In this document: in pieces, positions 1 to 13,104 of the stretch
How the letters are laid out: every line of letters begins with the position of its first letter
Position numbering within the stretch: the first letter of the stretch is position 1
DNA from: Clostridiales bacterium
GTDB taxonomy: Bacteria; Bacillota; Clostridia; Oscillospirales; Acutalibacteraceae
Length of the DNA stretch: 13,104 bases
Assembly: GCA_012516295.1 (NCBI GenBank)
Contig: JAAYWU010000280.1
Coordinates: 1 to 13,104 of the forward strand
Direction of reading: 5' to 3'
Notes under the pieces: generated by a model
The model's input: only the letters and a program-made list of their open reading frames with translations
Told to the model about the DNA's origin: nothing
The model's database searches: none
Program-made: the position numbers and the translations under genes

Positions 1-1721
1 CGAAAAGGAAGAAAATAAGAATCCGGTTGGATGTGGTGTCCGAAAAGTTGGGAATACCGGTTGTCGGCACAAGCGCGCGGAGCGGGAAAGGGCTGAACCG
101 CTTGATGGATGCGGTTTCCGCCCTGACTTCACAAAAATGCGAACCGCATCCGTTGGTTATCACCTATGGGGAGGAAATCGAAAAGGCCGTTTCCATCCTG
201 GAACCTGCCGTTCAAAGGGCTTTGCAAGGGAAATTAAACAGCCGTTGGGTCGCTTTGAAGCTTTTGGATGGGGATACCAGCATTCTGGACGCATTGAAAA
301 AACATCTTCAATACGATATCCTCGCCAATCGGGAAATAGCGGAATGCCTGGAAAAGGCGTGGCAATCGCTGGATGAAAGCGGGATCCCGCCCGAGATGTT
401 CCGGGACAAAATTGTCACGAAAATCGTGCAGACCTGCGAAGAAATCGGCCGGTGCGCAGTGGTTTATGAACAGCGGGAGTATGCCGCACGCGACCGGAAA
501 ATCGATAAAATACTTACTTCAAAAGCAACGGGCATCCCGATTATGCTGCTCTTGCTCTGCGGTATATTCTGGCTGACGATCACCGGCGCCAATTATCCGT
601 CGGAGCTGATCGCAAACGGCCTGTTTTGGGTGGAAGACCGGTTGTCCGAGCTTTTCACAGCGGCCAATGCCCCGCTTTGGGTAAAGGGGCTGTTAATAGA
701 CGGCTGCTACCGGACGCTGGCATGGGTGGTTTCCGTTATGCTGCCGCCAATGGCGATTTTCTTCCCGCTGTTTACCCTGCTGGAGGATTTGGGATACTTA
801 CCGCGCGTTGCTTTCAATCTGGATTATTTTTTCCGAAAAGCATGTGCGCATGGCAAACAGTCACTAAGTATGTGTATGGGATTTGGGTGTAACGCCTGCG
901 GCGTGATTGGCTGCCGGATTATTGACTCTCCCCGCGAGCGCCTGATCGCAATCCTTACCAATAATTTTGTTCCGTGCAACGGGCGGTTCCCAACGCTCAT
1001 CGCGGTGATCACCATGTTTTTTGCGGGCGGGGCGGCGGGCCCTTTTCAATCGCTGGTTTCAACGCTGATGTTAACCGCGGTCATTGTTTTGGGCGTAATC
1101 ATGACTTTGCTCATTTCCAAACTATTGTCGAAAACCATCCTGAAAGGAATGCCGTCCTCCTTTCATCTGGAGCTTCCGCCGTACCGCAAACCGCAGATCG
1201 GAAAGGTAATCGTGCGCTCCATCTTTGACCGTACGCTCTTTGTCCTTCGCCGGGCGGCGGCGGTTGCGGCGCCGGCCGGGCTGGTTATCTGGCTGATGGC
1301 GAATCTGAAAGCGGGCGATTCCAGCATCCTTACGCTATGCGCGGATTTCCTTGATCCGTTTGCGCGGCTGATCGGGCTGGATGGCTATATCCTCATGGCT
1401 TTTATCCTGGGCTTTCCCGCCAATGAAATTGTGTTTCCCCTTATTATTATGAGCTATATGGCGACCGGCGCTTTAACGGATTATGAAAGCCTGGCGCAAT
1501 TGCACACCCTGCTTATCGACCACGGGTGGACCTGGCTTACGGCTATCTGTGTAATGCTGTTTTCTTTGATGCACTGGCCCTGCGGGACAACATGCCTGAC
1601 GATAAAAAAGGAAACGCAGAGCATGAAATGGACCTTGCTGTCCTTCGCGCTTCCTACGGTTTCCGGATTGGCCGTATGTTTCTTCGTGGCAAATACCGCC
1701 CGGCTTTTTGGGTTGGCCTGA
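1..1721 (+). CDS. feoB: Ferrous iron transport protein B, 5'-truncated by window edge
   Basis: FeoB is the inner-membrane Fe(II) permease with a cytosolic G-protein domain. The frame is open to the left edge, so the true start lies outside; the TTG at 27 is internal. The missing part would be the first ~130 residues, with the G1-G4 motifs. What remains starts at the end of the G domain, with the G5-type motif GTSARSGKG (69-95). It continues through a helical GDI-like segment and then several hydrophobic segments. Two Gate regions are recognisable: GFGCNACGVIGC (879-914) and NNFVPCNGRFP (960-992), which follows SPRERL. The second is the Cys-Asn-Gly version I associate with clostridial FeoB; enterobacterial FeoB differs there. 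The family stretch FPLFTLLEDLGYLPRVAF is also present. The gene ends with TGA, and its length fits a FeoB of about 700 residues. feoA could lie upstream, off the window. Confidence 0.95.
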   Translation, partial: KRKKIRIRLDVVSEKLGIPVVGTSARSGKGLNRLMDAVSALTSQKCEPHPLVITYGEEIEKAVSILEPAVQRALQGKLNSRWVALKLLDGDTSILDALKKHLQYDILANREIAECLEKAWQSLDESGIPPEMFRDKIVTKIVQTCEEIGRCAVVYEQREYAARDRKIDKILTSKATGIPIMLLLLCGIFWLTITGANYPSELIANGLFWVEDRLSELFTAANAPLWVKGLLIDGCYRTLAWVVSVMLPPMAIFFPLFTLLEDLGYLPRVAFNLDYFFRKACAHGKQSLSMCMGFGCNACGVIGCRIIDSPRERLIAILTNNFVPCNGRFPTLIAVITMFFAGGAAGPFQSLVSTLMLTAVIVLGVIMTLLISKLLSKTILKGMPSSFHLELPPYRKPQIGKVIVRSIFDRTLFVLRRAAAVAAPAGLVIWLMANLKAGDSSILTLCADFLDPFARLIGLDGYILMAFILGFPANEIVFPLIIMSYMATGALTDYESLAQLHTLLIDHGWTWLTAICVMLFSLMHWPCGTTCLTIKKETQSMKWTLLSFALPTVSGLAVCFFVANTARLFGLA

Positions 1722-1767
1722 ATCGTAGGAACGGGCTGTTTATGCGCAAGTTTTTGTGCTTTCGGTA

Positions 1768-1802
1768 CGGATGAAGCGGATGGGCGCAATTGCTTCATCC
1801 GC
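1768..1802. repeat. Two mutually exclusive inverted repeats between feoB and the GTPase gene
   Basis: GGATGAAGC (1769-1777) pairs with GCTTCATCC (1792-1800); a flanking C1768-G1801 pair makes a 10-bp stem with a 14-nt loop. Alternatively GCGGATG (1776-1782) pairs with CATCCGC (1796-1802). Both stems use the same 3' arm, so only one can form at a time. No T-run follows, so a standard Rho-independent terminator is not supported. The 3' arm overlaps the proposed -35 box at 1790-1795, so the repeat could act as a DNA operator or as a weak processing or termination structure for feoB mRNA. The function is unknown. Confidence 0.5.
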
Positions 1803-1818
1803 CGGAACATGGTATATT
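1790..1818 (+). promoter_or_regulatory. Probable sigma-A promoter of the GTPase-NYN gene
   Basis: TTGCTT (1790-1795) and TATATT (1813-1818) are 17 bp apart, the optimal spacing. The -10 matches the consensus at 5 of 6 positions, the -35 at only 3 of 6. Transcription would start near 1825, about 45 nt before the ATG at 1871. The match is moderate and the call is by eye. Confidence 0.45.
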
Positions 1819-1824
1819 AAAACT

Positions 1825-1842
1825 GCCGGGGTAAAAACCGGC
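1825..1842 (+). promoter_or_regulatory. Small hairpin at the predicted 5' end of the GTPase mRNA
   Basis: GCCGG (1825-1829) can pair with CCGGC (1838-1842) around an A-rich loop. If transcription starts near 1825 this is a 5'-terminal stem-loop, of the kind known to protect mRNA ends from decay in Firmicutes. That role is inference. Confidence 0.3.
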
Positions 1843-1844
1843 AA

Positions 1845-1874
1845 ATGAATTTGTTGTTTGGGGAAAAAGTATGA
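1845..1874 (+). CDS. Possible 9-codon leader ORF overlapping the GTPase start
   Basis: ATG at 1845 opens a nine-codon frame (MNLLFGEKV) whose TGA stop (1872-1874) overlaps the ATG of the GTPase gene as ATGA. Such overlaps usually mean translational coupling. Leader peptides are known upstream of ribosome-protection genes such as tetM, but this one is very short and has no clear Shine-Dalgarno; GGGG at 1828-1831 is far upstream and within the hairpin. It may be chance. Confidence 0.25.
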   Translation: MNLLFGEKV

Positions 1875-4531
1875 AAAAGCTGGTTGTTGGGATATTAGCC
1901 CACGTGGACGCGGGAAAAACCACCCTGTCGGAAGGGCTGCTCTACCGGAGCGGGCGCCTGAAAAAGCTGGGACGGGGCGATCATCAGGATGCGTTTCTGG
2001 ACACCGATGCCCTGGAGCGCGAGCGGGGCATTACTATTTTTTCAAAGCAGGCGTTGTTCACGCTGGGAGAGATGGAAGTCACGCTGCTGGACACGCCGGG
2101 CCATGTGGACTTTTCCAGCGAAATGGAGCGTACGCTGCAGGTGCTGGACTACGCCATCCTGGTCATCAGCGGTACGGAAGGCATACAGGGGCATACTCTG
2201 ACGCTGTGGAAACTGCTGGAACGGCACGGTATTCCGGTGTTCCTGTTTATCAATAAAATGGACTTAGCCGGAGCCGACCGGTCCGGTTTGCTGGAAAATC
2301 TGAAACAGAGATTCCATGACGGCTGTGTGGATTTCGGCGCGACGGGGGATTCCTTTTGGGAAAACGTGGCCATGTGTGACGAGGATGTGCTGACCGGCTA
2401 TTTGGAGCGGGGCAAGGTGACGGATGACGAGGTTGCCTCTCTGATCGCGCGGCGCAGGCTGTTTCCCTGCTATTTTGGTTCCGCGCTGAAGCTCGACGGG
2501 GTGGACGCTTTTCTGCAGGGGCTGGAACGCTACACCCGCTGTCCGGATTATCCGCCTGCGTTTGGCGCGAAGGTCTTTAAAATTGCCCGCGACCCGCAGG
2601 GGAACCGGCTTACCTATATGAAAATTACCGGCGGAAGCCTGAAGGTAACAACGCTGCTGACCAACCGGCGGGAGGGCCTTCCGGAGGAAGTCTGGGAGGA
2701 GACGGTCGACCAGATCCGCATTTATTCCGGCGCGAAGTACATTACGGCGGACGAGGCCCCCTCCGGCACGGTTTGCGCGGTGACCGGGTTGAGCAGGACG
2801 TATTCGGGCGAGGGGCTGGGGATTGAATATGCCTCGGAAAAGCCGGTGCTGGAATCGGTTTTGACTTATCAGGTGCTTCTGCCCGACGGATGCGACACGC
2901 ACGCCGCGCTTTCCAAGCTGACCCAGCTAGCGGAAGAGGACCCGCAGCTCCGTATTTTTTGGAACGAGCACCTGCGGGAAATCCATCTTCAGCTCATGGG
3001 AGAGGTACAGCTTGAAGTTCTGAAACGGCTGATTTCCGAGCGCTTCGGCCTGGAGGTGGAGTTCGGCCCCGGAAACATTGTCTACCGCGAAACGATTGCG
3101 GCGCCGGTGGAGGGAGTGGGGCATTTTGAGCCGCTCCGCCACTATGCGGAGGTCCACCTTCTGATGGAACCGGGCGAGCGGGGAAGCGGGCTTCAGTTTG
3201 ATACCATTTGCAGCGAGGACATGCTCGACCGGAACTGGCAGCGCCTTGTTCTGACCCATTTGAAGGAACGCACGCACCTGGGGGTGCTGACCGGTTCCCC
3301 GATTACGGATATGAAGATTACGCTGGTGGCGGGAAAAGCGCACGAAAAACACACCGAGGGCGGCGACTTCCGGCAGGCGACCTAGCGCGCGGTGCGGCAG
3401 GGGCTGATGTCCGCCGAGTGCATCCTGCTGGAGCCATGGTACGATTTCCGGCTGGAGATTCCCGCGGATTATGTGGGGCGGGCGATGTCGGACATGCTGC
3501 GGATGTCGGGGAATGTTGCCCAGCCGGAGACCGTCGGGAACGAGGTGGTTCTGACCGGTTCCGTTCCGGTGGCGGAAATGCGGGGCTATGCTTTGGAGCT
3601 TACCTCCTATACGAAGGGGCGGGGGAGGCTTTCCTGCACGCTGAAAGGATACGAGCCCTGCCATAATCCGGAGGAAGTTATTGCGGCAATCGGCTACGAC
3701 AGCGAGCGGGACACGGAAAACCCGGCGGATTCCGTTTTCTGTTCCCATGGCGCCGGAGTTGTTGTCAAATGGAATGAAGTGCACAATCATATGCATTTGG
3801 AAAGCTTCCTGAAACCGGAAACGGCGGAAGAGGAGCCGGAAAAATTCCCGTCCGCCGCGCGGCGCACGTCGGCCTATACCGGGTCCCTGGAACAGGACAA
3901 GGAACTGAAAGCCATCTTTGAAAAGACGTACGGACCGGTGAAGGAGAGGCATTTTTACCGGCAGCCGCGGCAGGAGATGGAGGAATCATCCGAGCAGCAC
4001 GCCGCCCAATCCCGCGCTGCCGGCCCGGAGTATCTATTGGTGGACGGTTATAACATCATTTTTGCATGGGAGGAATTGAGCCGGGTGGCCCGGGATAGTC
4101 TGGATACTGCCCGGAATCTGCTGATGGACATTCTCAGCAACTATCAGGGCTTTAAAAAGTGCAATGTGATTTTGGTCTTTGACGCCTATAAAGTTCCGCA
4201 TAATACGGGGGAAGTCGTCCGCTATCACAATATTCATGTTGTGTTTACCAGGGAAGCGGAAACAGCGGACGCGTACATTGAAAAGGTTACCTATGAGATT
4301 GGGAAGAAGCACCGCGTTACGGTGGCCACCTCGGACAGCGCGGAGCAGCTCATTATTTTGGGGCATGGCGCCCTGCGCCTTTCCGCAAAGGCTTTTCGCG
4401 CAGAAATCGAACGCACCCAGGGGCAGATTTCGAAGATTCTGGCTGCAAACCGATGGGAAGGGCAAAAACAGCCGTTTAACCTTCCAAAGGCAAATACACA
4501 GGGGACGGGTCCCAAGCGGGAAAAAGAATAA
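1871..4531 (+). CDS. TetM/EF-G-like ribosomal-protection GTPase fused to C-terminal NYN nuclease domain; one in-frame TAG
   Basis: Read through the TAG at codon 505, this is an 886-residue protein; TetM itself is about 640. The G domain has G1 AHVDAGKTT (10-18), switch I RERGITI (50-56), G3 DTPGHVDF (74-81, catalytic-type His78) and G4 NKMD (128-131). The EF-G-like domains II to V follow to about residue 640, then a charged linker (~640-720), then an NYN domain (721-862). The loop that carries Ser-Pro-Val in TetM is replaced here by a KHTEGGDFR stretch, so classical tetracycline resistance is not assured. ATG 1871 has GGGGA 6 nt upstream. If TAG stops translation, the product is a 504-residue GTPase lacking most of domain IV; the remainder (first in-frame start GTG 3392) has no clear ribosome site. 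Inferred role: ribosome A-site GTPase delivering a nuclease. I recall similar clostridial translation-factor GTPases of this length, some perhaps with this domain. Confidence 0.85.
3383..3385 (+). other. In-frame TAG at codon 505 of the GTPase-NYN gene
   Basis: The reading frame runs GGDFRQAT, TAG, RAVRQGL. Both sides are in the same frame and both align with domain IV of the TetM/EF-G family, so this is a single-codon interruption and not a gene boundary. From memory of clostridial relatives the residue is usually Tyr; TetM has Pro at the aligned place. TAC or TAT to TAG needs one base change. The codon is followed by CGC, and a C after the stop is a weak termination context in bacteria. A true nonsense mutation, an assembly error, suppression or recoding are all possible. 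Confidence 0.95.
4031..4456 (+). other. NYN/YacP (Rae1-like) nuclease domain of the fusion protein
   Basis: This is a domain call within the gene at 1871-4531, residues 721-862. It begins YLLVDGYNIIFAW, the hallmark of YacP/Rae1 NYN proteins. It continues with VFDAYKVPHNTG (Asp771), TADAYIE (Asp800, Glu804) and VATSDSAEQ (Asp822). Together with Asp725 and Asn728 the acidic metal-binding set expected of a PIN/NYN active site is present, so the domain looks catalytically competent. In Bacillus subtilis, Rae1 (YacP) is a stand-alone endoribonuclease that cuts translated mRNA in the ribosomal A site. Here the same kind of domain sits behind a GTPase whose relatives bind that site. The last 24 residues are a polar tail. 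Confidence 0.88.
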
Positions 4532-4537
4532 AATGCA

Positions 4538-4577
4538 GGCTCCGGAATTCCAATTACGGAATTCCGGAGCCGGTTTT
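4538..4577. terminator. Bidirectional Rho-independent terminator between convergent genes
   Basis: A perfect 14-bp stem pairs GGCTCCGGAATTCC (4538-4551) with GGAATTCCGGAGCC (4558-4571) around a 6-nt loop. TTTT follows on the plus strand (4574-4577). On the minus strand the stem is followed by a T-rich tract, the complement of 4521-4535. It serves the GTPase gene from the left and the dehydrogenase operon from the right. Confidence 0.9.
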
Positions 4578-4607
4578 AAGGGATTTATGAGAAGACTGTT
4601 GCTTTCT

Positions 4608-5657
4608 TTATTTCGCGATTCGGATGACAGATTTTACGATATTTGCTTTGTCCTTCACGCTGGAATCCATTGCGTTCTGAATGTCGTCAAAATCAAAGAT
4701 ATTGGTTACGATTCCGTTCAGGTTTATTTTACCGCTTGCAACCGCTTCAATTGCCATGGGATAAATGTTGCGATAGCGGAAAACGGTCTTGAAGGTCAGT
4801 TCCTTGTCAAGAGCAAGGCTCATCGGCATATTGATATAGCCTGTTTTCCCGTATCCTACCAGAACAACATTGGCACCTTTTTTCGCCATGAAAACAGCCT
4901 GCTGCGAAGTGATTTCCGTGCCCGCGGTCTCAATAATCACATCGGCGCCCTTGCCGCCGGTCAATTCCAGCACTCTTTTTACGGTATCCTCTTTGGCGGC
5001 GTTGATCACGCCCGTTGCGCCTAGCTCCATCGCCTTGTCCAGGCGTTTCTGCATAACGTCCGAAACGTAAACCCTGGATACGCCCAACGCTTTCAGCGCC
5101 ATCATGGAAACCAGACCGATACAGCCGGAACCGAGTACCACGGCGGTCTGGCCCATGTGGGCGTCGCCCTGCCGCGCGGCATGAAATCCAACGGCCAACG
5201 GCTCAATCAGCGCGCCTTCCATCGTGCTTACGTTCTCCGGCAGCTTAAAGCACAGTTCCGCTTCATGTGCGACATACTCCTGAAATACGCCGTCATACGG
5301 CGGGGTGGCAAAGAATTCCACATCGGGGCAGAGGTTGTACCGGCCGGATTTGCAGAATTCACAGTGGCCGCAGGTCTTTCCGGGTTCCAGCGCCACGCGG
5401 TCCCCAACCTTCAAATGGGTAACATCCTTGCCGACTTCCACAACAACGCCGCCCGGTTCGTGCCCCAGTACAAACGGGGGATTTACCTTGATGTCACCGA
5501 TACAGCCCATTTCATAAAAATGAAGGTCCGAGCCGCATACGCCGACATATTCCAGCTTTACCAGTACTTCGTTGTCCTTCGGAACCGGGATGTCTCTTTC
5601 GACGAAGCCCATTTTCCCGACCCCGTTCATAACTGCAACTTTCATTTTCCCTTCCAT
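4608..5657 (-). CDS. Zinc-dependent polyol dehydrogenase (xylitol/sorbitol dehydrogenase-like MDR)
   Basis: This is a medium-chain zinc alcohol dehydrogenase of the sorbitol/xylitol dehydrogenase group, predicted to oxidise a polyol to a ketose with NAD+. Catalytic zinc ligands are Cys41 (GVCGSD), His66 and Glu67 (GHE), with Glu152 in IEPLAVG a likely further ligand. The structural zinc lobe is C-x2-C-x2-C-x7-C (Cys96, 99, 102, 110). The Rossmann motif GSGCIG is at 176-181, and the Asp at 200 ending beta-2 favours NAD over NADP. The length of 349 is normal. ATG 5657 has GGAGG 7 nt upstream; a second ATG at 5645 is in frame, but the ribosome site favours the first. It is the last gene of the operon, 17 bp after xylB. 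With the kinase next door the best guess is xylitol or D-arabitol to D-xylulose; the exact polyol cannot be read from sequence. Confidence 0.92.
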   Translation of the reverse strand: MEGKMKVAVMNGVGKMGFVERDIPVPKDNEVLVKLEYVGVCGSDLHFYEMGCIGDIKVNPPFVLGHEPGGVVVEVGKDVTHLKVGDRVALEPGKTCGHCEFCKSGRYNLCPDVEFFATPPYDGVFQEYVAHEAELCFKLPENVSTMEGALIEPLAVGFHAARQGDAHMGQTAVVLGSGCIGLVSMMALKALGVSRVYVSDVMQKRLDKAMELGATGVINAAKEDTVKRVLELTGGKGADVIIETAGTEITSQQAVFMAKKGANVVLVGYGKTGYINMPMSLALDKELTFKTVFRYRNIYPMAIEAVASGKINLNGIVTNIFDFDDIQNAMDSSVKDKANIVKSVIRIAK

Positions 5658-5674
5658 TTTGATACCTCCATTAT

Positions 5675-7171
5675 TTATTTTCCGACTTCCGCTTCAAATA
5701 AATCCTTTGTTCTGCTGTATAATTCCTGATATATTTCGTAGGAAGTTCGGTATTTAACCATTTTGCTCTGATTGGGATAATAGACCTTGCTATCGAATGT
5801 AATATACCGGTTGCAGGCTTCCTGTATGCTGCTGAAGATTCCGGTTCCTGCCCCAGCCATAATGCATGCGCCAAGGCAAGCCTGCTCCTTTACGCAGCTC
5901 ACATGGACTTCCTTTTCAAAAATATCTGCCTGTATCTGGAGCCACACATCGCTGGAGGCTCCGCCACCCGAAGCAATGATACGGTCGCCCTTGATTCCGA
6001 TTTCGTCAAAGATTTGCAGCGAGTCTTTTAGGCTGAAAGCGACTCCCTCCATAACAGAGCGGATTATGTGCCGGTTATCGTGGCGGAGCTGCAGGCCGAA
6101 AAACATTCCCCGGGCTTTCGGGTTCATATGCGGCGTTCGTTCACCGGATAGATAGGGGAGATAAATAAGCCCGTCGCTGCCGGAATCAATTTCTCCAGCC
6201 ATGTTGCTCATCAGCTTGTAATCCTTTATGTGCAGCAATTTGTTTTTCAGCCAGTTCAGGGTCATGCCGCTGCAAAGAGCCGCTCCGTAAACCGTATAGG
6301 CTTTGTCAATAGAGTGGCAGAAGGTGTGCGTGCGCAGCTCGGAATCGTATCCGTCCTTTTTCGAGTAGGTGGAAATCTGCCCGCCGGTCCCGATGTTGGA
6401 AATGATCAGGCCCTCCCGGACCGCGCCGTTTCCAATGCTCTGCGCCGGCTGGTCGCCGGAACCGTAAATGACGGGGATACCCGCCCGAAGCCCGGTTTCC
6501 TTCGCGCATTCTTCCGTAATATATCCGGCAATTTCCGTTGCCTCATGGCACGCGGGGAAAATGGATTCCGGAAGGCCGAAGCGCTTGAGGATATCCCATG
6601 CCCAGTCCCTTTTCCCAACGTCAAAGGCAAGCGAGGCGGACGCGTCCGACGTATCCGTTCCGAAATTCCCGGTCATTTTTAGCCGGATATAATCCTTGGG
6701 ATGCAGTATTTTATAAGTTTTCCGGAAAATGGCAGGCTCGTTCTCTTTCACCCAGAGCAAAGAGGGAAATGCAAAACCGGTGAATGCGCGGTTATGGAAA
6801 ATCTGTGCCATTTCCTCCAGGCTTAGTTTTTTGTTCATTTCCTCGAGCTGCTTTTCCGAGCGCTAATCCAGCCAAATGATAGCCGGCCGAAGCGGAATCC
6901 CGTGTTCGTCCGTTATCACCAGCCCGTGCATTTGTCCGGAAAAGCCGACCGCGGCAATGGAATCAAACGCTTCACGATGCTGTTCTTTCAGCTTTTTCAA
7001 TATGGTTACCGCAGCGTCCCACCACATTTCGGGGGCCTGTTCGGCGTAATTTGCATGGGGTATGCTTACCGTATAGCTTTGCGCAGCCACGTCGAGTACT
7101 CCGCTATCGATATCCAACAGCATTGCCTTTATACTGGAGGTCCCCAGATCGATTCCTAGAATTGTCTTCAT
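5675..7171 (-). CDS. xylB: Xylulokinase (FGGY family), interrupted by one in-frame TAG
   Basis: Read through the TAG at codon 103, this is a 498-residue FGGY sugar kinase, the normal length for xylulokinase, which phosphorylates D-xylulose to D-xylulose 5-phosphate. N-terminal ATP/phosphate motif: GIDLGTSSIKAML from residue 6. The family SGQMHGL motif precedes IIWLD, then TAG, RSEKQLEE. The catalytic-base Asp lies in YGSGDQPAQ (about Asp240), followed by NIGTGGQIS. The adenosine-side motif SGGGASSDVWLQIQAD is also present. ATG 7171 has AAAGGAG upstream at good spacing. If TAG terminates, only the first 102 residues are made. A restart at ATG 6838 would give 387 residues without the N-terminal phosphate-binding motif and so probably without activity. 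Another ketose such as L-ribulose is possible, but the polyol dehydrogenase neighbour supports xylulose. Confidence 0.9.
6863..6865 (-). other. In-frame TAG at codon 103 of xylB
   Basis: On the minus strand the codons read TGG CTG GAT TAG CGC TCG, that is IIWLD, stop, RSEKQ. Xylulokinases of this group usually have Asp-Gln-Arg here, so the lost residue is probably Gln (CAG to TAG, one transition). The downstream frame is fully conserved to the natural TAA at 5675. The next bases (CGC) are the same as after the TAG at 3383. Confidence 0.95.
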
Positions 7172-7198
7172 GGTTTTCTCCTTTAATGATGGGTTGTT

Positions 7199-8170
7199 TT
7201 AAGCTGCTTCCTTTTTTGAAGATGTAAAGATCTGAAGAAGCACGGATGCAATGATAATCAGGCCTTTAATAACATCCTGCGGATAAGACGGTACGGAGAG
7301 AAGGTTCATAATATTTCCGATTAAGGCAAGAACCAAAACACCGACTACGGTTTTCACCGCGGAGCCCGTACCGCCGGAAAGGCTGGCACCGCCGATGACA
7401 CAGGCGGCGATGGCGTCCAGCTCAAGGCCTTCGCCGTAAAGCGGGGTGCCGATACCGGTTCTGGAAGCGGCCATGACGCCGCCGAGCGTAGCACACAGGC
7501 CGGAAATCGCGTAAACAGCGATTAAGTAGTAATTCACCCGGATACCGGACAGGCGCACACAGTTTTCATTGCTGCCGATTGCCAAAACAATCCGCCCGAA
7601 AGAGGTGCGGTTAATAACGAAAGCAAAAATAGCTACGACAACCAGCGCCAATACAAGAAGCAGCGGGATAATATGGGCGATGGTATTCTGCCCAAGCTGG
7701 CTGATGGTGTTGGAGGGTGTGCGGATGGGGGAGCCGTTTGAAAGAATAAACGCGGCGCCCCGGATAATCGTCATCATCGCCATGGTTACGATGAAAGCCG
7801 GCATTTTGAATTTGGCAACCAAAACGCCGGAAAGCGTTCCGCAAACCAGCCCCAGCGCGACGTCCAGTAAAATTGCCGGGATCAGCCCGAGGCCGGAGTT
7901 AATGAAAATCGCCACGAGAACGCTTCCGCAGGCGAGATAGGAACCGACCGACAAATCAATTCCTCCGGTTGCAATCACAAGCAGCATGCCCATGCTCACC
8001 ACAGTAAGCGCCGCGTATTGTCTGCTGATATTGAAAAGGTTCGTGAGAGTGAGGAAATCGGGCGATATCGCCATGCAGATAATCAGGCAGACCGCAAGCA
8101 TTATATAGGTGTTATATTTCTTAATAAATTCAGTAATGGAATTGCTGTATTTTTTTGCATCGGTTTTCAT
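7199..8170 (-). CDS. Sugar ABC transporter permease (RbsC/XylH/AraH type)
   Basis: This is the membrane permease of a CUT2-type carbohydrate importer; in this family it works as a dimer with one two-domain ATPase. The 323 residues are strongly hydrophobic with a charged N-terminus (1-20) and many membrane segments. The family motif GGIDLSVG lies at 69-76. The conserved cytoplasmic coupling region GEGLELDAIAACVIGGASLSGG spans about 247-267. The gene starts 3 bp after the ATPase stop, with a G-rich ribosome site inside the ATPase 3' end, which indicates translational coupling. Substrate specificity cannot be read from the permease; the downstream kinase and dehydrogenase suggest a pentitol or related sugar. 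Confidence 0.93.
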   Translation of the reverse strand: MKTDAKKYSNSITEFIKKYNTYIMLAVCLIICMAISPDFLTLTNLFNISRQYAALTVVSMGMLLVIATGGIDLSVGSYLACGSVLVAIFINSGLGLIPAILLDVALGLVCGTLSGVLVAKFKMPAFIVTMAMMTIIRGAAFILSNGSPIRTPSNTISQLGQNTIAHIIPLLLVLALVVVAIFAFVINRTSFGRIVLAIGSNENCVRLSGIRVNYYLIAVYAISGLCATLGGVMAASRTGIGTPLYGEGLELDAIAACVIGGASLSGGTGSAVKTVVGVLVLALIGNIMNLLSVPSYPQDVIKGLIIIASVLLQIFTSSKKEAA

Positions 8171-8173
8171 TTC

Positions 8174-9664
8174 TTATTCCCCCACACATATTTTCATGAT
8201 ATTGACGTCCTGGAGATCTTCTTTCGGAAGCTCTCCGGTGATGCTGCCCCGACGCATGACATAGACCCGGTCGCTCATGTTGAGAATTTCCTCCATTTCG
8301 GAAGAAATCATAATAACGGCGATGCCGGATTCGGCCAGATCGTTGATGATTTTATAGATTTCCGACTTCGCGCCCACGTCCACGCCCCTGGTGGGCTCGT
8401 CAAGAATCATGAGCTTGCAGTCCGCGGCAAGCCATTTGGACAAAGCCACCTTTTGCTGGTTCCCGCCGCTCAGGCTGGAAACCTTGTCGCTCAGGGCATG
8501 GTACTTTGCGCTGACTTCCTTCAAAATGCTTTCCGCAAGGCCTTTATCCGCTTTTCGACAGATAACAGAGGCCTTCGTTACTTTTTTCAATGCTGTCAGG
8601 GTTACGTTATTTCTAATTGGCATGTCAAGCAGGATCCCCTGTTGCTTGCGGTCTTCCGGCAAAAAGCCGATTCCGTTTTTTACCGCCTCATAGGGACTCT
8701 TGAATACCACTTCTTTTCCAAAGTAAGTAATGGTTCCGCTGTCTATTTTATCCGCACCAAAAATTGCGCGCATAGTTTCCGTTCTTCCGGCGCCGACAAG
8801 CCCGCTGAAGCCTACTACTTCGCCTTTCCTTATATTAAAGGAGATGTTTTTTACCATTCTGCCGGCGTTCAGATTTTTTACCTCAAGCACAATATCACCG
8901 ATTTTCGCATTGCGTTTGGGGAAAAGCGTGGTTAATTCCCGTCCGACCATTTTTTCAATCAGTTCGTCTTTGCTGATGTCTTTTGTGTCGTAATCGCCTA
9001 TGTAACAGCCGTCTTTCATAACGGTGATTTTATCGCACAGCTCAAAAATTTCCTCCAGCCTGTGGGAGATATAAATAACCCCCATGCCCTGATCCCGTAT
9101 ATTCCTCAATAACACAAAAAGCTTTTGGATTTCGTTAAAGGTCAGCACAGCTGTCGGTTCGTCTAGAACCAAAATTTTTACATTTCTTGATAAGGATTTG
9201 CAGATTTCAACCACCTGTTGGTACGCTACGGATAAATCCATAATGCGTGCGTTCGGGTCGATGTCGCCGAAGCCCAGTTTCGTAAGAATATCCTTTGCGT
9301 CCTGCTTCAGCTTTTTCCAGTTGATAACCCCTCCCTTGGAAGAGAGTCTGTCAATAAAGATGTTTTCCGCAACGGTTAAATGCGGAGCCAGCATGAGCTC
9401 CTGATGAATGACGGAGATTCCCAGTTCCCTGCTGACTTTCGGAGAGGAGATTTTCCGAACCTCGCCGTCAATTTTAATCGTGCCTTCATCGCTTGGGAAA
9501 GCGCCCGCCAGAATGTTCATCAGCGTGGATTTTCCCGCGCCGTTTTCACCAATCAGGGCATGAATTTCTCCTTTTCCCAATTTGAAATTCATATTGTCCA
9601 AAGCCTTTACTCCGCTGAAACGCTTTGAAATATTCTCCATCTCGACCAGATATTCGCTGCCCAT
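8174..9664 (-). CDS. Sugar ABC transporter ATP-binding protein, two nucleotide-binding domains (RbsA/MglA/XylG type)
   Basis: This is a tandem ATPase of a CUT2 sugar importer, 496 residues. Domain 1: Walker A GENGAGKST (39-47), Q-loop near Gln88, signature LSVAYQQ (144-150), Walker B ILVLDEP (164-170) and switch His201. Domain 2: degenerate Walker A GLVGAGRT (288-295), in which Arg replaces the Lys, then signature LSGGNQQ (398-404) and Walker B LMILDEP (418-424). The degenerate second Walker A is the normal state for this family, so one site is expected to be weak. The start at 9664 has a GAGAGG/AGGA purine stretch upstream. It lies 76 bp after the binding-protein gene, with a stem-loop between them, and is tightly coupled to the permease. 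Confidence 0.94.
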   Translation of the reverse strand: MGSEYLVEMENISKRFSGVKALDNMNFKLGKGEIHALIGENGAGKSTLMNILAGAFPSDEGTIKIDGEVRKISSPKVSRELGISVIHQELMLAPHLTVAENIFIDRLSSKGGVINWKKLKQDAKDILTKLGFGDIDPNARIMDLSVAYQQVVEICKSLSRNVKILVLDEPTAVLTFNEIQKLFVLLRNIRDQGMGVIYISHRLEEIFELCDKITVMKDGCYIGDYDTKDISKDELIEKMVGRELTTLFPKRNAKIGDIVLEVKNLNAGRMVKNISFNIRKGEVVGFSGLVGAGRTETMRAIFGADKIDSGTITYFGKEVVFKSPYEAVKNGIGFLPEDRKQQGILLDMPIRNNVTLTALKKVTKASVICRKADKGLAESILKEVSAKYHALSDKVSSLSGGNQQKVALSKWLAADCKLMILDEPTRGVDVGAKSEIYKIINDLAESGIAVIMISSEMEEILNMSDRVYVMRRGSITGELPKEDLQDVNIMKICVGE

Positions 9665-9684
9665 TCCTATGCCTCTCTTTCAAA

Positions 9685-9711
9685 CTGTCCTGCCCAATTT
9701 GGGCAGGACAG
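9685..9711 (-). promoter_or_regulatory. Intercistronic stem-loop between binding protein and ATPase genes
   Basis: CTGTCCTGCCC (9685-9695) pairs perfectly with GGGCAGGACAG (9701-9711) around a 5-nt loop. On the minus strand only TTT follows, so termination should be partial at most. In several sugar ABC operons a hairpin at this position stabilises the binding-protein mRNA or attenuates the downstream genes, so that more binding protein than membrane parts is made. The same role is inferred here. Confidence 0.75.
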
Positions 9712-9740
9712 AACATGTGGACTCAATAAAATTCATTCGA

Positions 9741-10853
9741 TTAGAAAATAGCATTCGGATCATAGAAGGTGTCGACATTGTCTTTGTTAATGCAAACAGG
9801 ATCGGTGTTTACGGTAGCGCCGAAGGAATTCTTATCCGCGCCTTCCATTAAGAGTTTCGCTGCGACTTCAATTCCCTTTTTCGCAACCAGGGTCGGGCTG
9901 TTCAGGCCGGTGGCTTTATAGGCGCTGTCCTGCTTAATCAGTTCCAGCGCGCCCTTCATACCGTCCGCGGCCGCAAAAATCTTAATCTGGTTCAGCTTGC
10001 CCGCGTTTTCAATGGCCTTTTTCGCACCGATCAGCATGCTGTCATTCTCGCCGATTGTGCAGTTGATGTTCGGGTTTGCAACAAGGATATCTTCCATAGC
10101 CGGAAGGCCTTCGTCGGTTGTCCAGTTGCCCCAGCCCTGTGCGACAACTTCAAAATTTGCCTTCTCGTTGTAAGCCTTGCCCTTGTCGGTTAATTGCTGT
10201 TCAAATGCTTCGGCAAGCTTCCAAGCTTCTTCCTCTGTGCAGCCGATACGGCCTTCCAGGAAACCGCAGAACAGGCCGACTCTTCTGTCCTGTCCGCCGG
10301 GGTTGCCTTTGTTGCCGCTTAACAGGGCCGCAGAAATTTTGGTCGCTTTGTCGTACTGCTTTGCACCGTACAGGCCGACAACCCTTCCGTTTGAGCGGTC
10401 TGGGGCGGAAATGCTTGTGACAACCGGAGCGGATTTATCAACATGGCTGTCGATTCCAATGACCGGGATGCCCGCGTTCGTTGCTTCCTCAATGCTTAAG
10501 GTTGCGGCCTGGGTATCAACAACATTGATGAAAATTAAGTCATAGTGCTGGGAAATAAAGGTTTCCATGTTTTTCTGTTCGTTTTCAATCTTGTTTTTTG
10601 CGTCGAGTACGGTTACTTCAAATCCCTTTGCTTTGCCTGCTTCCACAAGGCCGTTTGCAAGCGCTGTCTGGAACTCGTTTTCCAACGTCTTCTGGGCAAA
10701 TCCGATCTTGAACGTTTTCTTACCGGAAGCCTGGGACGTGGCTGCGGACTGAGCGGAAGCGTTCCCGGACGAAGCGGTTGAACTGCTTGCGCAGCCGGTT
10801 ACCATACTGCCAGCCATGATGACTGTTAAAATAGCTGCTAAAAGTTTTTTCAT
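9741..10853 (-). CDS. Sugar ABC transporter substrate-binding lipoprotein (RbsB/periplasmic-binding-protein-1 family)
   Basis: This is the extracellular sugar-binding protein of the importer, membrane-anchored through a lipid. ATG 10853 is chosen because AGGAGG lies 8 nt upstream; an in-frame ATG at 10871 lies upstream of that ribosome site and is rejected. MKK is followed by a hydrophobic stretch and lipobox VTGC with Cys21 as lipid site. A Ser/Ala/Gly-rich linker runs to about residue 45, then a type-1 binding fold starts at KTFKIGFAQKTLENEFQ. Later family-like elements include GIPVIGIDS, CTIGENDSMLIGAKKA and DPVCINKDN. The length is 370. It is the first gene of the operon, right behind a strong promoter and putative operator. 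The ligand is not readable; xylitol, D-arabitol or a pentose is likely from context. Confidence 0.93.
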   Translation of the reverse strand: MKKLLAAILTVIMAGSMVTGCASSSTASSGNASAQSAATSQASGKKTFKIGFAQKTLENEFQTALANGLVEAGKAKGFEVTVLDAKNKIENEQKNMETFISQHYDLIFINVVDTQAATLSIEEATNAGIPVIGIDSHVDKSAPVVTSISAPDRSNGRVVGLYGAKQYDKATKISAALLSGNKGNPGGQDRRVGLFCGFLEGRIGCTEEEAWKLAEAFEQQLTDKGKAYNEKANFEVVAQGWGNWTTDEGLPAMEDILVANPNINCTIGENDSMLIGAKKAIENAGKLNQIKIFAAADGMKGALELIKQDSAYKATGLNSPTLVAKKGIEVAAKLLMEGADKNSFGATVNTDPVCINKDNVDTFYDPNAIF

Positions 10854-10891
10854 GTAATTCTCCTCCTGCATTTTCGATTAAATCAATTAAA

Positions 10892-10905
10892 TGAATTAAT
10901 CAATT
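10892..10905 (-). promoter_or_regulatory. Putative ROK operator at the sugar operon promoter
   Basis: On the minus strand the site reads AATTGATTAATTCA, beginning 10 bp downstream of the -10 box, within the first transcribed bases. A copy matching at 12 of 14 positions lies at exactly the same distance from the -10 of the ROK gene. It sits in a wider AT-rich inverted repeat, GATTAA (10876-10881) with TTAATC (10896-10901). A bound repressor here would block initiation or early elongation. Confidence 0.55.
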
Positions 10906-10915
10906 TTGTGATTTT

Positions 10916-10943
10916 ATTATAACACTCGATGTTTAAATGTCAA
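10916..10943 (-). promoter_or_regulatory. Consensus sigma-A promoter of the sugar uptake/catabolism operon
   Basis: On the minus strand a perfect TTGACA (10938-10943) and a perfect TATAAT (10916-10921) are 16 bp apart. Transcription should start near 10909, about 55 nt before the start codon of the binding protein. Such a strong core promoter implies control by repression, in line with the overlapping operator and the ROK gene upstream. Confidence 0.85.
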
Positions 10944-11008
10944 TAGAAAAGTAGAAATCCTTAAAATTTTTATTGATAATGGATGAATAATACGATTTTA
11001 AGCAAAAT

Positions 11009-11037
11009 AAGGACCTCTGTTCTGCGCAGAGGTCCTT
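11009..11037 (-). terminator. Rho-independent terminator of the ROK gene
   Basis: AAGGACCTCTG (11009-11019) pairs with CAGAGGTCCTT (11027-11037), an 11-bp perfect stem with a 7-nt loop. On the minus strand TTATTTTGCTT follows. It lies 29 bp after the ROK stop codon and before the operon promoter, so ROK and the operon are separate transcription units. The plus strand also has a short TTTT. Confidence 0.85.
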
Positions 11038-11066
11038 TTAAGAATTGATCCGTCTTTGCAAATCCG

Positions 11067-12269
11067 TTAAGGATGAATGTTTTCTTCGATAAAACGGGCG
11101 GGGTTTTCAAATACTTCATTAATCGCCACAATCGCGGCGCCGTGCAGAATGGAATCGTTCTTGATGTTGCTGAATCCGATTTTAAGATTTTCCCATACTT
11201 CGGGGATTACCCGGCTTTTTACGGTTTCGCAGACGGTATTGTACATCAGGCTGGGATTGATATGTGCCATTTCATCGCCCAAAATGATCATATCCGGGTT
11301 GAAGTTATTGACGATATTTACAATGCCGATCCCCAGGTACTCGCACGCCTCCGTAAACTTTTGCAGGCAGATGGGGTCGCCCTGCTTCGTCAATTCTTTT
11401 ATCTGTTCAAAAGTATATTTTTTCTTTGTTGCCTCATTGACGGCGTTTGTAAACGCAATGGAGGAGCAGTATTTTTCAAGGCACCCGGTGTTTCCGCAGG
11501 AGCACTTTAAGCCGTTGAAATCAATACAGGTATGGCCGATTTCGCCCGCGGTTCCCAGCGAACCCTTCATTACCTCGCCGTCGATCATAATTCCGGCGCC
11601 GATTCCCTGTCCCACCGCGACATAGATCAGCACATCGCATTCCGACGCTTCCTTTGAATGCCATTGCTGTGTGTAAACGCCCGCGTTCGCGTCGTGTTCC
11701 AATATAACCGGTATATGATACAGCTCTTCCAGCTCTTTCTTAATTAAAATATGCTTCCAGCCCTCAGCTTCCGTCATCAGTCCGATGCGCCCCTCTTTTT
11801 GAATAAACGGGCCGGGTATGGCAACGCCGATGGAAAGAATGGTATAGGATCGGTTCTGATTCAGGAATTCCTGTATCATATTTTTAATATTCGAAAAAAT
11901 ATCCTTTGGCTGCTCTTCCAAATTGGTTTCCACCCGTTGCAGCTGATGCATTTTTCCTGTTAGGTCAAACAGGCCGACGGAATAATATTTGCGGGCAATC
12001 CGTACGCCGATTACGCGGAAGGTGTCCGTGTTAATGGCAATCCCGATGGAGCGTCTCCCTTTGCTGCCGTTTAGGAAACCGACCTCTTTTACAAAGCCCC
12101 ATTTGATAAAATCATTAATGATATTCGTAACGGTGGCCTGCTTTAAACCCGTTGTGTTCGCCAACTGAACCCGGGAGCACATGCCCTGTTTACGAAGCAA
12201 ACTGATAATAAGCGATCGGTTGAATCCTTGAATGGTATCCTGGTTGATCCCTTTGTTTCTCTTTTTCAT
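11067..12269 (-). CDS. ROK-family transcriptional repressor (XylR/NagC-like)
   Basis: This 400-residue protein has a winged-helix DNA-binding N-terminus (about 14-70, with SRVQLANTTGLKQATVTNII as the recognition part) and a ROK sugar-binding domain. ROK features seen: VGVAIPG-like SIGVAIPGP (146-154), ILEHDANAG (189-197, sugar-contact Glu/His/Asp/Asn), GTAGEIGH (239-246) and the zinc site His246 plus Cys256, Cys258, Cys263 in CSCGNTGC. It has a regulator-type HTH extension, so it is not a plain sugar kinase. It likely represses the adjacent pentitol/xylulose operon and itself, released by the sugar or its derivative. Evidence is the shared motif downstream of both promoters. The ribosome site is weak (GGTGAAAG just before ATG), so levels may be low. 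Confidence 0.92.
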   Translation of the reverse strand: MKKRNKGINQDTIQGFNRSLIISLLRKQGMCSRVQLANTTGLKQATVTNIINDFIKWGFVKEVGFLNGSKGRRSIGIAINTDTFRVIGVRIARKYYSVGLFDLTGKMHQLQRVETNLEEQPKDIFSNIKNMIQEFLNQNRSYTILSIGVAIPGPFIQKEGRIGLMTEAEGWKHILIKKELEELYHIPVILEHDANAGVYTQQWHSKEASECDVLIYVAVGQGIGAGIMIDGEVMKGSLGTAGEIGHTCIDFNGLKCSCGNTGCLEKYCSSIAFTNAVNEATKKKYTFEQIKELTKQGDPICLQKFTEACEYLGIGIVNIVNNFNPDMIILGDEMAHINPSLMYNTVCETVKSRVIPEVWENLKIGFSNIKNDSILHGAAIVAINEVFENPARFIEENIHP

Positions 12270-12295
12270 TCTTTCACCAAACCTATATAATAAAT

Positions 12296-12309
12296 TGAAT
12301 TAATTAATA
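12296..12309 (-). promoter_or_regulatory. Putative ROK operator in its own promoter region
   Basis: On the minus strand the site reads TATTAATTAATTCA, containing the 10-bp palindrome ATTAATTAAT (12299-12308). It starts 10 bp after the -10 box, as at the operon promoter. It supports negative autoregulation of the ROK gene; this is inference from motif and position. Confidence 0.55.
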
Positions 12310-12319
12310 TCTTAGTTTA

Positions 12320-12347
12320 ATTATATCTATTATACATTCCTTGTCAA
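12320..12347 (-). promoter_or_regulatory. Consensus sigma-A promoter of the ROK repressor gene
   Basis: On the minus strand TTGACA (12342-12347) and TATAAT (12320-12325) are separated by 16 bp, the same layout as the operon promoter. A second TATAAT at 12329-12334 is only 7 bp from the -35 and cannot pair with it. Transcription should start near 12313. Confidence 0.8.
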
Positions 12348-12419
12348 TAAAAGATTTCCTTTCTTCATATATTGCTGGCGCAATAAGTGTTCAATCCGTA
12401 CATAAATTTTAAAATGTTG

Positions 12420-12448
12420 TTGACATCAATGTAGAAATATGCTAACTT
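12420..12448 (+). promoter_or_regulatory. Promoter of the BglG-family antiterminator gene
   Basis: A perfect TTGACA (12420-12425) lies 17 bp before TAACTT (12443-12448). TG at 12440-12441 gives an extended -10 (TGC then TAACTT), which compensates for the weak -10. Transcription would start near 12455, leaving a leader of about 110 nt that holds the antiterminator and terminator hairpins. Confidence 0.65.
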
Positions 12449-12479
12449 ATATATATGAACAAAAAGCAATAAAATAATA

Positions 12480-12509
12480 GGTGTGTTACTGATTCGTCAG
12501 GCATTAACC
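12480..12509 (+). promoter_or_regulatory. RAT-like ribonucleic antiterminator site for BglG/LicT-type protein
   Basis: The stretch starts GGTGTGTTACTG and continues ATTCGTCAGGC and ATTAACC. It matches the general form of LicT/SacY/BglG RAT hairpins, with GG, GTTACTG, variable loop, CAGGCA and ACC at matching spacing. Binding of the CAT domain of the antiterminator would hold this hairpin and block the overlapping terminator, which starts at 12501. Confidence 0.85.
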
Positions 12510-12540
12510 GGATTTTCTTTGTCCGTGTTAATGCTTTTTT
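12501..12540 (+). terminator. Conditional terminator in the leader of the antiterminator gene
   Basis: GCATTAAC (12501-12508) pairs with GTTAATGC (12527-12534). The stem continues with CGG (12509-12511) and CCG (12523-12525) after one bulged T. TTTTTT follows (12535-12540). Its 5' arm is the 3' part of the RAT, so the two structures exclude each other. This is a classical antitermination switch, here placed before the antiterminator's own gene, which implies autoregulation. Confidence 0.88.
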
Positions 12541-12563
12541 GTTTATGGTGGGGTGGTGGTAGG

Positions 12564-13104
12564 ATGACGGAAGTATATCGCATTTTACGCGTGATGAATA
12601 ATAATGTGATTCTAGTCCGCAGGAAATCAAAGGATACCCAGTTGGTTCTGATCGGGAAGGGACTGGGCTTTAAAAGGAAACCCGATATGGAAGTTGCGAT
12701 CGATTCCGAACAGATTGAAAAATCTTTCCTCGCTTGCGATACAAAGGGGAAGAACGATTATCTCACTCTTATTGAGAATCTTGACGATAAACTGATCGGG
12801 CTTTGTTCTGAAATCACTTTGATGGCAGAGAAAAGGATGGGCCGGTTAAACGAAAATTTGCTGATTGTTTTAACCGACCATATCGGGTTCGCAATCGAAC
12901 GGATAAAAAAGGGCATCGAGATTCAGAACCCGGTTGTCTATGAAATTAAGAATCTGTATCCGGAAGAGTTTCGGGTCGGGCTTGCGGCAAAGGACCTGAT
13001 CAAGGAGCAGCTGGGGATCGAAATCAACGACGACGAGGTTGCCTTTATTGCCCTGCATCTTGACGCGGCAAAGCTGCATATAAAAGCATCCGATTCCTTT
13101 AATA
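12564..13104 (+). CDS. BglG/LicT-family transcriptional antiterminator, truncated by window edge
   Basis: From ATG 12564 the frame is open to the right edge, giving 180 residues of a protein usually near 280. The RNA-binding CAT domain covers about 1-57, with the family pattern RVMNNNVILV and GKGLGFKRKPD. PRD1 follows, with phosphorylatable histidines His106 (LTDHIGFA) and His165 (FIALHLD) and the motif LYPEEFRVG. The histidine spacing is the same as for LicT His100/His159. PRD2 lies outside the window. By family, phosphorylation of the PRDs by PTS proteins decides whether the protein binds the RAT. The PTS genes it controls should lie downstream. A G-rich stretch precedes the start but a clean Shine-Dalgarno is not obvious. 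Confidence 0.93.
   Translation, partial: MTEVYRILRVMNNNVILVRRKSKDTQLVLIGKGLGFKRKPDMEVAIDSEQIEKSFLACDTKGKNDYLTLIENLDDKLIGLCSEITLMAEKRMGRLNENLLIVLTDHIGFAIERIKKGIEIQNPVVYEIKNLYPEEFRVGLAAKDLIKEQLGIEINDDEVAFIALHLDAAKLHIKASDSFN

Follow-up and report, generated by a model that had tools for sequence, protein, structure and literature searches.

In the contig JAAYWU010000280.1 of a Clostridiales bacterium (13,104 nucleotides, analysed over its full length and here called the window) a gene at 1871-4531 on the forward strand joins an EF-G/TetM-like GTPase to a complete YacP/Rae1 (NYN) nuclease domain in the same frame, which is broken by a single TAG. The fusion is a real feature of a known architecture. 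It appears to have taken over from the free rae1 gene in its lineage, and this capture and replacement appear to be the new part of the finding. We lean towards the reading that, in Clostridia and their kin, the NYN domain of Rae1 was appended to the C-terminal end of an EF-G/TetM-family GTPase, that free rae1 was then lost, and that the GTPase delivers the tethered domain to ribosomes whose A site is empty.

Domain content of the fusion

The window makes up all of contig C197; the assembly is of metagenome type, with 1.7 Mb in 387 contigs and a completeness of 87%. Counting the in-frame TAG and the final stop, the gene comprises 887 codons with the following features:

1871..3382, +, piece 1, translational GTPase from the G domain to domain IV, 504 codons, including AHVDAGKT, RGIT, DTPGH, NKMD and GSALK
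3350..3370, +, domain IV tip motif HTEGGDF, different from SPVSTPADF of TetM and VDSSEMAF of EF-G
3383..3385, +, in-frame TAG, which breaks the frame in the assembly and is not present in the intact relatives read
3386..4528, +, piece 2, 381 codons with domain V, tail, linker and NYN domain, followed by the stop TAA at 4529-4531
3425..3667, +, EF-G domain V (EFG_C), from a profile match
3659..3811, +, conserved tail behind domain V with near-invariant C, C, H and H, from an alignment; limits transferred from P0001 with a one-residue offset
3812..4024, +, flexible linker, some 70 residues long, that includes one conserved helix motif, DKELKAIFEKTYG (3896-3934)
4034..4456, +, NYN_YacP (Rae1) nuclease domain in which four Asp are conserved, from profile and structure matches
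4538..4571, no strand, terminator-like inverted repeat with a 15 bp stem, immediately 3' of the gene

The two pieces were searched separately, piece 2 from 3392 onwards, while whole-chain analyses used intact relatives. Piece 1 matched the profiles GTP_EFTU (2.6e-48), EFG_III (5e-8) and EFG_IV (6.9e-16) above their cut-offs; the match to EF-G_D2 (8.2e-6, 26.3 bits) was slightly below its cut-off of 27. Together with the G motifs and domain V in piece 2 (EFG_C, 1.6e-21) this places the protein in the EF-G superfamily of translational GTPases. The NYN_YacP profile (PF05991) matched piece 2 at 2.5e-50 with 171.2 bits, compared to a gathering score of 24.6, and the solved structures of B. subtilis YacP (5mq8/5mq9) matched at 5.3e-23. 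Since the structure-match list of the whole-chain model had no NYN row, a separate NYN model was used. The motifs DGYN, FDAY, ETAD and TSD of the nuclease start at nucleotides 4040-4328. A first-pass annotation made from the letters of the window had described a GTPase and a complete NYN/YacP domain with all acidic residues in one frame apart from a single TAG. Profiles, motifs and frame reading bear this out, including the nuclease fold, and its residue numbers Asp725 and Asp822 are correct when the TAG is counted as residue 505.

In an alignment of 65 rows the tail residues were conserved as C in 62, C in 65, H in 60 and H in 64 rows; this C-C-H-H arrangement is a possible metal site. Short GTPases that carry no NYN domain end in a similar tail. 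Within the linker the helix motif was strongly conserved (E in 97% and G in 98% of the 65 fused rows). The same gene is intact in a genome of the same genus (G001) and also in G008. Compared to the intact G001 copy the ratio of nonsynonymous to synonymous substitution rates (dN/dS) was 0.106 before the stop, 0.142 after it and 0.116 in the NYN part, which indicates purifying selection on both pieces. Because of the common frame, the domains and the selection, a chance origin of the fusion is excluded.

Active site and C-terminal motif

The four conserved Asp of the nuclease were found in the window, in all 29 free rows and in all 52 fused rows. The C-terminus behaves differently in free and fused proteins. 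Free Rae1 rows end with LEK-x-R-R/K or a sequence near it, with the R in 31/31 and both basic residues in 30/31 rows, whereas not one of 50 fused rows has both; 16 of these are gapped at the first R, two keep an R (L026, L028) and two have a K (L013, L131). The motif aligns with W164-R165-R166 of B. subtilis Rae1. In the window the NYN_YacP match stops at position 143 of 166, and the residues behind the domain contain no W-R-R motif; the same holds for the G001 copy (L012). The accessible part of PMC6613710 (Table 1) lists R166P with the rae1 suppressor alleles that its authors interpret as loss of function. In our reading W-R-R would be a docking element that the GTPase has made dispensable.

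Distribution of fused, free and short forms

Relatives were searched with residues 500-870 of the G001 protein. At least 7996 candidates were scored, all with an E value of 0.001 or better, and PF05991 was present in all of the best 120. Among these, 117 are proteins of 854-1002 amino acids with EF-G domains and three are pieces of 551-559 amino acids. They carry names such as 'small GTP-binding protein', 'translation elongation factor G', 'translation factor GTPase' or 'TetM/TetW/TetO/TetS family', and the named sources include Lachnospiraceae, Oscillospiraceae and others; the assignment of the lineage to Clostridia follows from these names.

The domain IV tip pattern occurred in 115 of 393 genomes of a class sample, for which 90% completeness was asked (reversed control: 0). 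This count is a lower bound, as 24 of 80 fusion-length genomes do not contain the exact pattern. Among the NYN matches listed in this sample 150 were classed: 65 free, 80 fused and 5 intermediate. Genomes thus carry one form or the other. The first-pass annotation had proposed to check whether fusion carriers lack a separate yacP gene, and for the most part they do: among the 80 listed fusion-length genomes only G340 has an intact second, free copy. Five genomes of the class sample had several matches and were searched again: G340 contained this pair, G425 contained the fusion plus fragments, and the extra matches of G176, G230 and G264 were all below the cut-off. In a sample of the phylum, 110 of 199 genomes gave one NYN match each. 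Eleven were of fusion length (877-914 amino acids), 97 lay in frames of 163-308 amino acids, one was the 381-residue piece of the window, and the remaining one, below the cut-off, lay in a frame of 714 amino acids. Nine of the eleven fusions fell outside the class label of the window, such that the fusion is not confined to that class.

The GTPase also occurs in a short form of 618-665 amino acids that ends just behind the tail; 13 chosen loci that were read comprised 12 short GTPases and one fusion (L177).

As a side observation, sequences of the fusion-type tail and NYN domain are found on unannotated faecal contigs labelled 'Bacteriophage sp.' in their records (MT835563.1, 7215-8009; MT835514.1, 17022-17783).

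Probable replacement of free rae1

Free NYN genes have a characteristic place: 25 of 31 loci lie between rlmB and sigH, five have sigH behind them and one has neither neighbour. An annotated C. difficile record gives the same order of rlmB, NYN protein and sigH. The gene of the window stands elsewhere, between feoB and a zinc dehydrogenase gene. A search for rlmB covered 28 fusion carriers and two other genomes. In 13 of the 28 carriers sigH was found behind rlmB, and G425 provided a fourteenth case. The slot between both genes contained one intact rae1 (G340), two decayed relics and in 11 carriers nothing recognisable. In G133 the relic is 35 residues long and scored 31.6 bits, a value that none of 1000 dinucleotide shuffles reached. 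In G425 two relic pieces with 57% and 61% identity (E values of 2e-12 and 3e-11) remain while the middle is missing. A profile check of the 14 carriers found a full-length GTPase and the NYN domain in one frame in 13 of them; in G077 the DNA examined begins inside the GTPase. In the literature searched we found no statement on a replacement of rae1 by the fusion; some Rae1 papers outside that search may mention the fusion.

Twelve C. difficile plasmid records also match. One of them was opened (NZ_CP149721.1, L241), a 97 kb 'plasmid' in PLSDB that carries the rlmB-NYN-sigH-tuf-ribosomal protein region and is likely a circularised piece of chromosome.

Relation to EF-G, TetM and Rae1

The tip of domain IV reads YGLYYSPVSTPADFR in TetM, TGRAHNKHTEGGDFR in the fusion-type GTPases and DGSYHEVDSSEMAFK in EF-G. 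In the 65 rows of alignment A2 the K and H of the tip are invariant and T, E, G and G are each found in 63-64 rows. The tip thus keeps the His position of EF-G (that of its GSYH) and has a near-invariant loop of its own. The accessible text of PMC8161019 places Pro-509 of TetM in the tetracycline site; the loop of the window has KHTEGG in place of SPVSTP and contains no such Pro, as the first-pass annotation had noted for the TetM tip residues. Five intact relatives (three fused, two short) scored 374-458 bits against the NCBIfam profile tet_protect with its cut-off of 775, and piece 1 of the window alone scored 322 bits. Because the tip is neither that of TetM nor that of EF-G and the five relatives remain far below the cut-off, an annotation as tetracycline protection is probably wrong. 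An action like that of a resistance protein at the level of A-site binding is plausible.

The fusion shares with TetM/TetO-type proteins (NF012153, NF033148) the five-domain GTPase over nearly the whole profile and the DFR after the tip; it differs by scores below the curated cut-offs, by KHTEGG instead of SPVSTPA, by the C-C-H-H tail and by the NYN domain. EF-G is the best structural match, but the stretch between G domain and domain II is shorter in the fusion and the tip loop is again different. Two other EFG_IV proteins are present in the genome. From Rae1/YacP of B. subtilis (PF05991) the fusion differs by its position behind a GTPase, by the lost W-R-R motif and by its place outside the rlmB-sigH slot.

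Tet-like GTPases with a C-terminal YacP NYN domain in one chain were described in 2015 for ten Clostridiales, with antibiotic resistance offered as a possible role (Atkinson et al. 2015, accessible part of PMC4342817). Relatives of the gene are members of that set; the architecture is the same, intact in the relatives and interrupted by the TAG in the window. The resistance remark preceded the A-site role of Rae1, which was shown in 2017 to cut mRNA in the A site (accessible parts of PMC12320835 and PMC6613710), and in what is accessible of the 2015 paper no link to the loss of rae1 is made. Among the accessible texts the fusion is stated in PMC4342817 and not in PMC6613710, PMC12320835, PMC11780869, PMC8161019, PMC8547433 or PMC5983828. 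The first-pass annotation had supposed an architecture that is widespread but functionally undescribed. Widespread it is, with intact one-frame copies in the same genus and beyond; the fusion itself had been described, while its function is undescribed as far as these sources and our search reach.

Mechanism and alternative explanations

In the proposed mechanism the GTPase would bind the ribosomal factor site and the A site in its GTP form and would thereby replace the docking by W-R-R. The GTP-bound protein would associate with a ribosome whose A site is vacant, GTP hydrolysis would withdraw domain IV, and the NYN domain on its tether would enter and cut the mRNA. This cut would open the way to rescue by transfer-messenger RNA and to decay of the mRNA. 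When EF-G or TetM is bound, its domain IV fills the decoding site; a nuclease in that chain would therefore have to act before or after it. Because domain IV occupies the A site and a tether of roughly 70 residues from behind domain V should be able to reach there, we propose a sequential hand-over on the flexible tether, which would fit better than simultaneous occupancy. Of the single-chain A-site nuclease device suggested in the first-pass annotation the fusion itself thus stands, whereas an A-site cut while domain IV fills the site is sterically doubtful and an action on drug-blocked ribosomes is unsupported. At slightly less than even chances we would go further and regard the protein as a one-chain, GTP-clocked rescue enzyme, in which an EF-G-like arm tests whether the A site is vacant, clears it and hands it over to the tethered Rae1 nuclease for cleavage of the codon there, and which arose once in Clostridia and their kin, displaced rae1 and made the nuclease dependent on the GTPase for access to the ribosome.

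Several points weigh against the delivery of a tethered nuclease by the GTPase and the replacement of rae1. Domain IV and the NYN domain would be unable to share the A site at the same time. The GTPase does not need the nuclease and has a role of its own, because it also exists without it: of the 12 genomes with short GTPases six have a free Rae1 and six have no NYN_YacP. The domain is absent from 49 of 60 relatives, and the function is therefore dispensable. In 15 of the 28 carriers, including those of the genus of the window, no sigH was found behind rlmB and the slot was unreadable (in G310 the contig ends 511 bp on); no rae1 was found behind rlmB in these carriers either. A rae1 relic in the 592 bp gap of G247 was rejected, since 28 of 1000 shuffles scored as well. 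The motif loss might instead reflect that the ribosome-dependent role was given up. In addition, the R of the GA.R motif, present in 31/31 free rows and kept in the window, is not conserved in 33 of 50 fused rows, and substrate handling may therefore differ. We found no biochemistry on the fusion in the literature searched. Finally, a single origin is compatible with the trees but not proven, and a clade formed by the fused NYN domains alone was not rejected (p-AU 0.38).

One alternative is that the NYN domain does the job of Rae1, or another RNA-processing job, by itself, while the GTPase is unrelated and the fusion only couples expression. Each half also exists by itself, as a short GTPase or as free Rae1, and the linker between the halves is flexible, as this explanation would have it. 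We nevertheless consider it unlikely: the fusion has displaced the free gene, its nuclease domain no longer has a motif on which free Rae1 depends, and the linker motif is conserved. Less probable still is a Tet-type ribosome protection protein with a gained ribonuclease that frees drug-blocked ribosomes and perhaps cuts ribosomal, transfer or messenger RNA there. Atkinson et al. raised resistance as a possibility, tet_protect is the best NCBIfam match, and names such as 'TetM/TetW/TetO/TetS family' are also found on an Agathobacter rectalis plasmid record. Against this stand the low tet_protect scores and the tip without the SPVST loop and its drug-site Pro. Moreover, conserved neighbours in 41 loci were limited to an ABC ATPase group in nine (window and G001 included) and two groups in four each, and coverage of the tail-NYN part reaches 80% in only 2 of 72,556 plasmid records.

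If delivery by the GTPase holds, many Clostridia and their kin would cut ribosome-bound mRNA with a GTPase-delivered enzyme; we know of no characterised enzyme of this kind. Genes named for tetracycline resistance would then partly be a housekeeping form of Rae1, and tallies of resistance genes would come out too high. The loss of the motif and of the slot would also allow direct tests of the way in which Rae1 itself gets to the A site.

Trees and origin of the fusion

In the NYN tree 29 free rows separated from 53 fused rows plus two free ones (L130, L183) with a support of 100/97, based on few columns. In the GTPase tree the fused rows lie on one side of a branch with a weak support of 34. 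This branch is inside a strongly supported group that also contains short forms of Bifidobacterium (L040) and Collinsella (L038), while other short forms fall outside; the window piece is labelled short in this tree solely because it ends at the TAG. The simplest account is one fusion, followed by loss of the NYN domain on transfer to Actinomycetota. For the short forms L038 and L040 near the fused group, and for L034, which is not in the tree, transfer and NYN loss are probable.

The free NYN domains L130 (genome G265) and L183 (G281) group with the fused ones, keep the C-terminal R and are candidates for the donor lineage. An origin of both by fission was not supported: the short GTPases of their genomes are among the short forms, and L183 stands before sigH.

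The in-frame TAG

The same 13 kb are present in G001 (window 1-13056, 95.0% identity, single alignment) with the fusion gene intact. TAG ended 11 of 71 open stretches in 20 contigs plus the window, a count that did not pick up the split xylulokinase gene described below. TAG is thus a normal terminator here, and recoding was rejected. The TAG stems either from a recent mutation or from an error of the assembly. An ordinary terminator does stand in the frame, and the stop may be real and the copy of this strain a recent pseudogene, though we rate this somewhat below the opposite: dN/dS is low on both sides of the stop and the locus is intact in G001. In addition, a second in-frame TAG (6863-6865) splits a xylulokinase-like gene (5675-7171, reverse strand) that is intact in G001 (L012, 10613-12109). 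Because it lies in the same 13 kb of a fragmented assembly, base errors are suggested.

Surroundings of the gene

Upstream of the fusion lies feoB (3-1721), cut by the contig end, and downstream the zinc dehydrogenase gene (4608-5657) on the opposite strand. The latter belongs to a likely sugar operon at 4608-12269 (reverse strand) with genes for the zinc dehydrogenase, an FGGY kinase, a ROK regulator and, by reading, a sugar ABC transporter. The G+C content is 0.58-0.61 over 2000-4000 of the window and 0.40-0.55 around it.
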